NCBI RefSeq assembly: GCF_014203155.1
Contig: NZ_JACHIK010000003.1
Span: 62,001 to 126,000 of the forward strand
DNA length: 64,000 nt
Source of the DNA: Shinella fusca
GTDB lineage: Bacteria; Pseudomonadota; Alphaproteobacteria; Rhizobiales; Rhizobiaceae
Direction: 5' to 3'
Made by a program: the position numbers and the translations under genes. The notes beneath the pieces were generated by a model. The model was not told the DNA's origin. It saw only the letters and a program-made list of their open reading frames with translations, and ran no database searches. Shown here one piece after another: positions 28,227-34,271 of this stretch (its first letter is position 1; each line of letters begins with the position of its first letter).

Positions 28227-28312
28227 AAGGCGCCCTCCAAGTCCTTGGCGCCCTTTCTCCTCGGGCGCCGGCTCACACTTTCGGCGCGAACGCGCCGTTT
28301 TGCCTGAGCCCC
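28227..28312 (-). promoter_or_regulatory. Expression platform of the glycine riboswitch
   Basis: After aptamer II, GGCTCA pairs with a later TGAGCC and encloses the hairpin CGGCGCG-TTC-GCGCCG. Next comes a GGCGCCC/GGGCGCC stem and then the TTGGAGGG ribosome site. GGCGCC occurs three times, the last just after the ribosome site, so alternative pairings could hide or free it. This suggests translational control, since no T-run terminator is seen. Confidence 0.5.
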
Positions 28313-28461
28313 CTCTGTCCCTTCGCCTGAGATTGTTATCCCTTCGGCGAGCGCTTTCGCGCTTCTCTCCAGAGTTCCGACGGCACCTTGCTGGTCCTTT
28401 TGCCTGAGAGTTTCCGGGGCGGTTGCTCCTTCGGCACCGGATTTGCCCGGTTTCTCCCAGC
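28313..28461 (-). promoter_or_regulatory. Tandem glycine riboswitch
   Basis: Two aptamers are visible on the minus strand. Aptamer I spans 28461-28390: P1 arms GCTGG and CCAGC, then GGGAGAAAC, GCCGAAGGAGCAA and CTCTCAGGCAAAAGGACC. Aptamer II spans 28374-28313: P1 arms CTCT and AGAG, then GCCGAAGGGATAA and ATCTCAGGCGAAGGGACAG. The linker is 15 bases. This is the standard glycine-sensing pair, here controlling gcvT-gcvH-gcvP. Glycine binding should switch the operon on. Confidence 0.93.
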
Positions 28462-28556
28462 GAGGTCGGCTCCAGATAACGGCCTCGCCCATATTTTGGC
28501 AAGAGGCGGCGTCGCTCTCGAACAAATTTTTGTCGTTCGAGAAAAGGGACAAAAGA

Positions 28557-31906: not shown

Positions 31907-33439
31907 ATGAAGGAAATTCTCCACGAACTGGAAGCCCGGCGCGAGCGCGCCCGCATGGGCGGCGGCGCCGCCCGTATCGATGCGCAGCACAAGCGCGGCA
32001 AGCTGACCGCGCGCGAACGCATCGAGGTGTTCCTGGACGAGGGCTCCTTCGAGGAATTCGACATGTTCGTCGAGCACCGCTCGACGGATTTCGGCATGGA
32101 GAAGACGAAGATCGCCGGCGACGGCGTCGTCACCGGCTGGGGCACGGTGAACGGGCGCACCGTCTTCGTCTTCGCCAAGGACTTCACCGTCTTCGGCGGC
32201 TCGCTTTCCGAGACCCACGCCCAGAAGATCATGAAGGTCCAGGACATGGCGCTGAAGAACCGCGCGCCGATCGTCGGCCTTTACGATGCGGGCGGCGCGC
32301 GCATCCAGGAGGGCGTCGCCGCGCTCGGCGGCTATGCCGAGGTCTTCCAGCGCAACGTGCTCGCCTCCGGCGTCATCCCGCAGATTTCCGTCATCATGGG
32401 GCCGTGCGCGGGCGGCGACGTCTATTCGCCGGCCATGACCGATTTCATCTTCATGGTGCGCGACACGTCCTACATGTTCGTGACCGGCCCGGACGTCGTG
32501 AAGACCGTCACCAACGAGACGGTCACGGCGGAAGAGCTCGGCGGCGCCTCCGTCCACACGACGAAATCCTCCATCGCCGACGGAGCCTATGATAACGATG
32601 TCGACGCGCTGCTGCAGGTGCGCCGCCTCATCGACTTCCTGCCGCAGTCCAACACCTCGCCCGTGCCGGAGATCGAGTGCTTCCAGTCGGTGGAGGAGAC
32701 GGACGCCTCGCTCGACACGCTCGTGCCGGCGAACGCTAACAAGCCCTACGACATCAAGGAACTGATCGCAAAGACCGTCGACGAGGGCGATTTCTTCGAG
32801 ATCCAGGAGAGCTTTGCGAAGAACATCGTCTGCGGCTTCGGCCGCATCGAGGGGGCGACGGTCGGCTTCGTCGCCAACCAGCCGATGGTGCTGGCGGGCG
32901 TGCTCGATTCGGATGCCAGCCGCAAGGCGGCGCGCTTCGTGCGCTTCTGCGACTGCTTCGGCATTCCCGTCGTCACCTTCGTCGACGTGCCGGGCTTCCT
33001 GCCGGGGACGGCTCAGGAATATGGCGGCCTCATCAAGCACGGGGCCAAGCTGCTCTTCGCCTTTGCCGAGGCGACCGTGCCGAAGGTGACGCTGATCACG
33101 CGCAAAGCCTATGGCGGGGCCTATGACGTGATGGCGTCGAAACACCTGCGCGGCGACATCAATTATGCCTGGCCGACGGCGCAGATCGCGGTGATGGGCG
33201 CCAAGGGGGCGGTCGAGATCATCTTCCGCAAGGACATCGCCGACCCGGAGAAGATCGCCGCACATACGAAAATGTACGAGGATCGTTTCCTCTCGCCGTT
33301 CGTCGCGGCCGAGCGCGGCTATATCGACGAGGTGATCATGCCGCATTCCACGCGCAAGCGCATCGCGCGGGCGCTCAGGCTCCTGCGCAACAAGGATCTC
33401 GAAAACCCCTGGAAGAAGCACGACAACATTCCGCTTTGA
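31907..33439 (+). CDS. pccB: Propionyl-CoA carboxylase beta chain (carboxyltransferase)
   Basis: 510 residues from the ATG at 31907, preceded by CCGAGGGACC. The carboxyltransferase domain shows G-G-A-R-I-Q-E-G-V and M-G-P-C-A-G-G in the first half and A-Y-G-G-A-Y-D-V-M in the second. These form the two oxyanion holes. It transfers CO2 from biotin on PccA to propionyl-CoA. The alpha subunit gene lies 6.7 kb away on the same strand. DoxX follows 20 bases later. Confidence 0.95.
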
Positions 33440-33459
33440 ACCGCAAGGAGGATTTCCCG

Positions 33460-33849
33460 ATGTTCGATCGCCTTTCCGCCTACCGCCCGCAGGCGCTCGC
33501 CGCGCTCCGTATCGTGGCGGCGCTGCTCTTCATCGAGCACGGCACGCAGAAATTCATCGATTTCCCGCCGGCCGAGCAGCCCTTCGGCGACCTGATGAAC
33601 ATCCTTGGCGTGGCGGGCGTGCTGGAGGTCGTCGGCGGCGTGCTGATCCTCATCGGTCTCTTCACGCGGCCGGTCGCCTTCGTGCTCTGCGGCTTCATGG
33701 CGGTCGCCTATTTCATGGCGCATGCGCCGCAGAGCTTCTTTCCGATCAACAACCGCGGCGATGCCGCGGTCCTCTTCTGCTTCGTCTTCCTGTACCTCAC
33801 GGCAGCGGGGCCGGGCGCCTTCGCGCTCGACAACGGCCGCCGCAGTTAG
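33460..33849 (+). CDS. DoxX family membrane protein
   Basis: 129 residues from the ATG at 33460, with a strong AAGGAGG ribosome site. Four hydrophobic helices are visible, with the family motif F-I-E-H-G-T-Q-K and V-G-G-V-L-I-L-I-G-L-F-T-R. DoxX proteins are quinone-linked or stress-related inner-membrane proteins of unsettled function. It follows pccB by 20 bases and overlaps the convergent gdx gene by 4 bases. Confidence 0.88.
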   Translation: MFDRLSAYRPQALAALRIVAALLFIEHGTQKFIDFPPAEQPFGDLMNILGVAGVLEVVGGVLILIGLFTRPVAFVLCGFMAVAYFMAHAPQSFFPINNRGDAAVLFCFVFLYLTAAGPGAFALDNGRRS

Positions 33850-34160
33850 GCGACGAACTTCAGGCCGAGGATGCCGGTGACGATGAGCGCGATGCAGCCG
33901 AGGCGCATCGCCGTCGCCGGCTCGGCGAAGAGGACTATGCCGAGGATGACGGTGCCGACCGTGCCGATGCCGGTCCAGACCGCATAGGCCGTGCCCATGG
34001 GCAGCGTCTTCACGGCAAGGCCGAGAAGCACGATGCTGACCAGCATGGAGCCGGCGGTGAGCGCCGTCGGAAGGGGCTTGGTGAAGCCGTCGGTATATTT
34101 GAGGCCGATGGCCCAGCCGATTTCAAAGAGGCCGGCAAGGGTGAGAAGGATCCAGGGCAT
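33846..34160 (-). CDS. gdx: Guanidinium exporter Gdx (SugE-type SMR protein)
   Basis: 104 residues, four transmembrane helices. The Gdx/SugE subgroup signature is present: G-L-F-E-I-G-W-A-I-G-L-K-Y, with the essential Glu in helix 1, and G-T-A-Y-A-V-W-T-G-I-G. This subgroup exports guanidinium in exchange for protons, unlike EmrE multidrug members. The leader carries ACGR hairpins of the guanidine-II type, which strongly supports the assignment. GGAG lies 8 bases before the ATG. Confidence 0.93.
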   Translation of the reverse strand: MPWILLTLAGLFEIGWAIGLKYTDGFTKPLPTALTAGSMLVSIVLLGLAVKTLPMGTAYAVWTGIGTVGTVILGIVLFAEPATAMRLGCIALIVTGILGLKFVA

Positions 34161-34182
34161 TCTGCCTACTCCGTTTCAAGGA

Positions 34183-34236
34183 GCGAGGCCGTCCCCGCGA
34201 TCGTGACCGGATCGTTCCGGCGGTAGCCGTCTACCG
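34183..34236 (-). promoter_or_regulatory. Guanidine-II (mini-ykkC)-type riboswitch with three ACGR hairpins
   Basis: Three consecutive stem-loops have ACGR tetraloops on the minus strand. H1 is 34236-34221, CGGTAG-ACGG-CTACCG. H2 is 34220-34207, CCGGA-ACGA-TCCGG. H3 is 34198-34183, GCGGGG-ACGG-CCTCGC with one G-U. The H1-H2 gap is zero and the H2-H3 gap is 8 bases. Described guanidine-II riboswitches have two such hairpins whose loops pair with each other. The last base of H3 also belongs to CTCC (34183-34180), which can pair with the GGAG ribosome site (34172-34169). Guanidine-stabilised H3 would thus favour translation of gdx. Confidence 0.85.
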
Positions 34237-34242
34237 GAGTGG

Positions 34243-34271
34243 ACTATCGTTCATCCGCGCTGTGGTCGCAA
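34243..34271 (-). promoter_or_regulatory. Promoter of gdx
   Basis: On the minus strand TTGCGA (34271-34266), a 17-base spacer and GATAGT (34248-34243) form a sigma70-like promoter. The expected transcription start, about seven bases later, falls at the first base of hairpin H1. The transcript would therefore begin with the riboswitch. Confidence 0.5.

Follow-up and report, generated by a model that had tools for sequence, protein, structure and literature searches.

Guanidine-II riboswitches (mini-ykkC; Rfam RF01068) are built from two G+C-rich hairpins with ACGR loops, P1 and P2, each closed by a G-C pair, that stand by the ribosome site ahead of an SMR exporter gene. The portions of the literature cited here describe the linker between the two hairpins as flexible and 7-40 nt long (PMC7544219), with most linkers having at least 13 nt, and place the guanidinium of the crystal structure on the G of the G-C closing pair, on which it stacks (both PMC5486947). 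The meeting of P1 and P2 in cis has been doubted in print (PMC7544219). For the E. coli aptamer, an NMR study reports KD values of 59 µM for the AA loop pair, 133 for AG, 165 for GA and 264 for GG (A standing for ACGA and G for ACGG), and GG variants are said there to be low in abundance (PMC9300104, in part). A review of tandem riboswitches, in the sections available, reports no stacked guanidine-II systems (PMC9481103).

We examined a leader that at first sight appears to depart from this two-hairpin plan, in a window (the whole stretch of DNA analysed, 64,000 nucleotides) from Shinella fusca. As the preliminary description had it, three adjacent hairpins with ACGR loops, H1, H2 and H3, lie on the minus strand, H2 following H1 with a spacing of 0 nt and H3 following H2 with a spacing of 8 nt, which amounts to a linker of 22 nt between H1 and H3 (Table 1). 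Comparison with related leaders makes it probable that this is a two-aptamer guanidine-II riboswitch, with H1 as P1 and H3 as P2, whose linker holds a conserved, covarying hairpin, H2, that is not an aptamer. The leader is thus ordinary in kind, and its covarying linker hairpin is a real variant feature. The stability of the 111-nt leader taken as a whole is not unusual (z -0.27).

Table 1. Features of the leader and its exporter gene (window positions)
Feature	Position	Strand	Remarks
-35-like hexamer TTGCGA	34266..34271	minus	layout common to 21/21 genus genomes
-10-like hexamer GATAGT	34243..34248	minus	6 nt before H1; layout in 21/21 genus genomes
H1, predicted P1, CGGTAG[ACGG]CTACCG	34236-34221	minus	G-C closing pair; ACGR loop 21/21; R1 match
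H2, predicted linker hairpin, CCGGA[ACGA]TCCGG	34220-34207	minus	A-U closing pair; stem paired 21/21
Single-stranded tail, 8 nt, linker hairpin to P2	34199..34206	minus	7-8 nt tail in 68/81 folded long linkers
H3, predicted P2, GCGGGG[ACGG]CCTCGC	34198-34183	minus	G-C closing pair; invariant 21/21; R1 match; predicted output hairpin
GCTCC, pairs with ribosome site	34180..34184	minus	overlaps P2 3' arm; five pairs, no variation in genus
Ribosome site GGAG(T)	34168..34172	minus	8 nt before ATG
gdx/sugE-type SMR exporter gene	33846..34160	minus	ORF; 104 aa + stop

The downstream gene had been taken for a Gdx-type exporter, an assignment borne out by matches to the NCBIfam SugE model (126.4 bits, cut-off 126) and to the Pfam SMR family (96.8 bits). 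Among the named records of the scan, Shinella kummerowiae comes closest, with 89% identity in this protein, and the gene is present in all 21 genus genomes searched. A convergent DoxX-family gene (33436-33849, plus) shares four bases with it, stop to stop (33846-33849). The proposal that transcription begins at H1 likewise agrees with a predicted promoter whose two hexamers are 17 nt apart; the layout of TTG, 16-17 nt, a -10 box and 5-6 nt to H1 recurs in 21 of 21 genus genomes, where for one genome the sequence was taken from a named duplicate. A strict consensus promoter scan of the window reported no promoter and neither hexamer. Another ACGA pseudo-hairpin, GGATGA[ACGA]TAGTCC (34256-34241, minus, one mismatch), was rejected: it covers the -10 box and, if the promoter is right, would therefore not be transcribed.

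The assignment of the leader to the guanidine-II type stands. The ACGR loops of H1 and H3 are both kept in 21 of 21 genus genomes (alignment A1) and so are not a matter of chance, and both hairpins have a G-C closing pair in the window and throughout these genomes. Within the genus, both partners change at a single pair of P1, and P2 is without any variation. A covariance model, R1, was derived from an alignment (A3) of 37 leaders, all from other genera and hand-picked from 72 after their folds had been seen. R1 matches the window and 20 sister leaders at 47.1-58.8 bits; the window's own match runs from H1 to H3 (34183-34236, 50.2 bits), the runner-up position in the window reaches 15.3, and 34183-34236 is the single place found over the whole genome. 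The end of P2 lies 22 nt from the ATG of the SugE-type exporter, and the H1-H3 linker falls inside the 7-40 nt range as printed (PMC7544219, in part). H1 and H3 are accordingly predicted to be the P1 and P2 aptamers of a guanidine-II riboswitch. The leader shares with RF01068 the two G+C-rich ACGR hairpins closed by G-C, the SMR exporter downstream and the nearness to the ribosome site, but differs in that its linker holds a covarying hairpin, both aptamer loops are ACGG, and its score lies below the Rfam cut-off.

The preliminary description read H2 as a third ligand-binding unit, and the three ACGR hairpins do, at first sight, resemble tandem-aptamer riboswitches built of three or more units. 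As the third guanidine loop of such a sensor, H2 would rival H1 for H3 and alter the affinity or the dose response; consistent with this, its loop is a full ACGA, the best-binding type in the E. coli study as far as cited here (PMC9300104), next to a P1 and a P2 that both carry ACGG, and its 8-nt tether to H3 lies inside the range printed in the relevant part of PMC7544219. However, the ACGA tetraloop is seen in the window only, that is, in one of 21 genus genomes; the H2 loops of the sisters include ACAA, AAGA, AGGCA and TCTTC, the ACAA of one sister (L085) being a single base away. Across 177 leaders of relatives, too, an ACGR hairpin of at least four pairs between P1 and P2 is found once, in the window, against 0.62 expected on average in dinucleotide-shuffled linkers, where at least one arises in 47% of trials. 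The 40 leaders from outside the family contain no third ACGR hairpin between P1 and P2. Moreover, H2 is closed by A-U, as opposed to the G-C pair that closes 367 of 375 ACGR hairpins (those with four pairs or more, no farther than about 140 nt from the starts), and H1 and H2, at a spacing of 0 nt, would lack a tether for kissing in cis. Loop conservation, closing pair and chance expectation led us to reject H2 as a conserved aptamer, and we regard a three-unit sensor in this genome as very unlikely; unlike in the larger tandem systems, only two units are supported in the window, and chance is the best explanation for the ACGA loop that H2 has there. Four other leaders (L005, L102, L114 and L116) have the letters ACGA too, within the larger loops of their linker hairpins and not as tetraloops on at least four pairs.

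The wider comparison behind these counts began with 233 loci, of which 225 had a gdx match; these gave 213 distinct leaders, and 177 were analysed. The remaining 36 of the 213 were set aside, either for want of two G[ACGR]C hairpins with at least four pairs each, no farther than about 180 nt from the start, or for a linker longer than 70 nt; a recognisable hairpin pair is thus not universal among the relatives. Both hairpins were present in 40 of the 58 loci from outside the family. Close relatives of the exporter are favoured in the locus sample. A further alignment, A2, was a trial of four leaders.

In place of the tempting three-site guanidine sensor, this comparison supports better a linker that is folded, covaries and keeps a fixed geometry. 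The stem of H2 is paired in 21 of 21 genus genomes, and at one of its pairs both partners change. Linkers in the 177 leaders are of 20 nt or less in 83, of 21-40 nt in 93 and of 63 nt in one, which was left out of both the short and the long sets. Folds with at least five pairs are predicted in 81 of the 93 long linkers (shuffles: mean 54.1, at most 62), a moderate excess of stable folding over shuffles; it is the geometry and the covariation that stand out. A helix starting no more than 1 nt from P1 and ending 6-9 nt before P2 is present in 69 of the 93, compared with a mean of 6.0 and a maximum of 12 in 50 rounds of shuffling, and the signal persists when the genus is removed (50 of 72; shuffles mean 4.1, maximum 9). 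Among the 81 folded long linkers, 68 have a tail measuring 7 or 8 nt. In a test that involves no folding, 29 of 70 distinct non-genus linkers reached five pairs in any of four registers, where mononucleotide shuffles averaged 1.3 and never exceeded 6, and 53 formed at least four. In a sequence-only alignment of the 37 hand-picked leaders of other genera, the linker helix has both sides changed at all five pairs and 73.4% of its cells paired; the covariation score of the whole structure is 0.370, as against 0.136 for shuffles, none of which scored as much in 500, and no more than 0.107 for slid versions. Covariation, considered for all three stems, thus bears on the preliminary description in two ways: the stem of H2 is upheld across genera, and its loop fails as an aptamer loop. 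As judged from these alignments, H2 is a conserved, covarying linker hairpin abutting P1. Our search of titles and abstract openings, some primary papers lying outside it, found no description of a linker hairpin in the guanidine-II class.

We defined a structured-linker class by a helix no more than 1 nt from P1, a tail of 6-9 nt, at least four pairs and a stability of -3.5 kcal/mol or better; 73 of the 177 leaders belong to it, from 11 of the 30 assignable genus codes within the window's family. The hairpin is not needed for the guanidine-II class as such, since 83 of the 177 relatives have short linkers (20 nt or less). Small hairpins beside P1 were also noticed in some leaders outside the family. 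The last 8 nt before P2 are non-random in the 52 non-genus structured-linker leaders, with A at position -7 in 75%, A at -6 in 71%, C at -5 in 75% and C at -1 in 96%.

Outside the genus, neither the loop nor the stem sequence of the linker hairpin is conserved, and its length also varies freely. Because both ends of the hairpin lie at its base, one helix can replace a number of flexible nucleotides, and because the contact with P1 and the tail are fixed while all else is free, the hairpin would serve as a length-insensitive spacer or hinge that sets the reach between P1 and P2. Alternatively, it might be a regulatory part in its own right, as a site for a protein or small RNA or as a guide to folding while the RNA is being transcribed. 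The conservation of the helix and its constant position would fit such a role, as would the predicted folding of all three hairpins in a leader prefix ending after P2; still, the free variation of loop and stem speaks against a sequence-specific partner, an argument that leaves a pure folding guide compatible with the data. We consider an independent regulatory role unlikely.

The preliminary description made H3 the output hairpin, given its place next to the CTCC opposite the ribosome site, and this reading is supported: the GCTCC able to pair with the ribosome site shares bases with the 3' arm of P2. Two mutually exclusive structures of nearly equal predicted stability result, P1+H2+P2 at -24.4 kcal/mol and P1+H2+ribosome-site hairpin at -25.0 kcal/mol, and the full leader, as opposed to the prefix, is predicted to hide the ribosome site. 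The best folds of 20 genus leaders open P2 in 15 cases and keep it in 5. In these folding models P2 likely competes with an alternative hairpin in which the ribosome site is hidden. Within the genus, the ribosome-site helix is invariant at all five pairs, so covariation lends it no support. By this arrangement the leader differs from that of E. coli, where the complement of the ribosome site lies in the linker according to the parts of the accounts used here (PMC9300104, PMC9094411); an E. coli-style complement in the linker was tried and is weaker here than the one after P2. In 67 of the 73 structured-linker leaders the stretch after P2 offers the ribosome site better pairing than the linker does, compared with 44 of 82 short-linker leaders. 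In the mechanism we propose, guanidine would join the loops of P1 and P2 and stabilize P2, the stabilized P2 would keep its 3' arm out of the GCUCC/GGAGU hairpin, and the ribosome site would then be free for the exporter to be made. This would be an ON switch, a direction taken over from the class (PMC9094411 and PMC9300104, each in part).

The Rfam guanidine-II model gave a weak match to the window, at 20.1 bits on H2 and H3, which falls short of the cut-off of 32; the match, in other words, aligns the linker hairpin together with P2. The same cut-off is reached by none of 20 genus sisters, by none of 20 other structured-linker leaders and in 5 of the 20 loci of a mixed set, and it is to be read as a proxy and not as a structural feature of the guanidine-II class. 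Class counts and loop-type counts may be biased, given that none of these 40 structured-linker leaders besides the window's reaches it. In 71 of the 73 structured-linker leaders, as against 8 of the 104 others, the closing G of P1 is preceded by an A, which probably lowers the Rfam score. For context only, a phylum-wide run of RF01068 gave 58 of 299, 50 of them over the cut-off. Over the order, R1 was found in 6 of 397 genomes, a figure not usable as a distribution because in each genome 13 candidates were scored, under strict filters, where there could be as many as several thousand.

The loops of P1 and P2 differ markedly between the two kinds of leaders. The pair is ACGG/ACGG in 54 of the 73 structured-linker leaders and ACGA/ACGG in the other 19, and among the remaining 104 leaders AA is found in 59, AG in 21, GA in 18 and GG in 6; GG is seen in none of the 40 leaders outside the family. 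Many guanidine-II leaders of the family therefore combine a structured linker with mostly ACGG/ACGG, the pair found weakest by NMR (PMC9300104, in the part cited). The correlation of the hairpin with GG (54/73 versus 6/104, raw) nevertheless rests on too few independent changes to exceed shared ancestry: on the gdx protein tree the hairpin changes at least six times, with two independent pairs on supported branches. We tentatively raise the possibility, which we hold with less than even confidence, that the structured-linker leaders form a subclass common in the family, in which a hairpin stacked on P1 would pre-set the distance between P1 and P2 and let two weak ACGG loops cooperate in cis; Rfam would have overlooked it because its model expects a short, free linker. 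The predicted folds that keep P2 in 5 of 20 genus leaders, together with the shared ancestry behind the hairpin-loop link, make this pre-organisation slightly less probable. Be that as it may, a natural structured linker makes the meeting of P1 and P2 in cis directly testable.

Two further RNA matches were noted in passing. Near the exporter of the sister L085, positions 909-1055 match the Brucella sRNA CI27 family at 36.3 bits, below the cut-off of 59.8. In the window itself, an ordinary tandem glycine riboswitch lies at 28311-28469 (minus), where RF00504 scores 65.9 bits (cut-off 32) on the first aptamer and RF03166 scores 80 bits over both, below its cut-off of 110; the downstream ORF is presumably gcvT.
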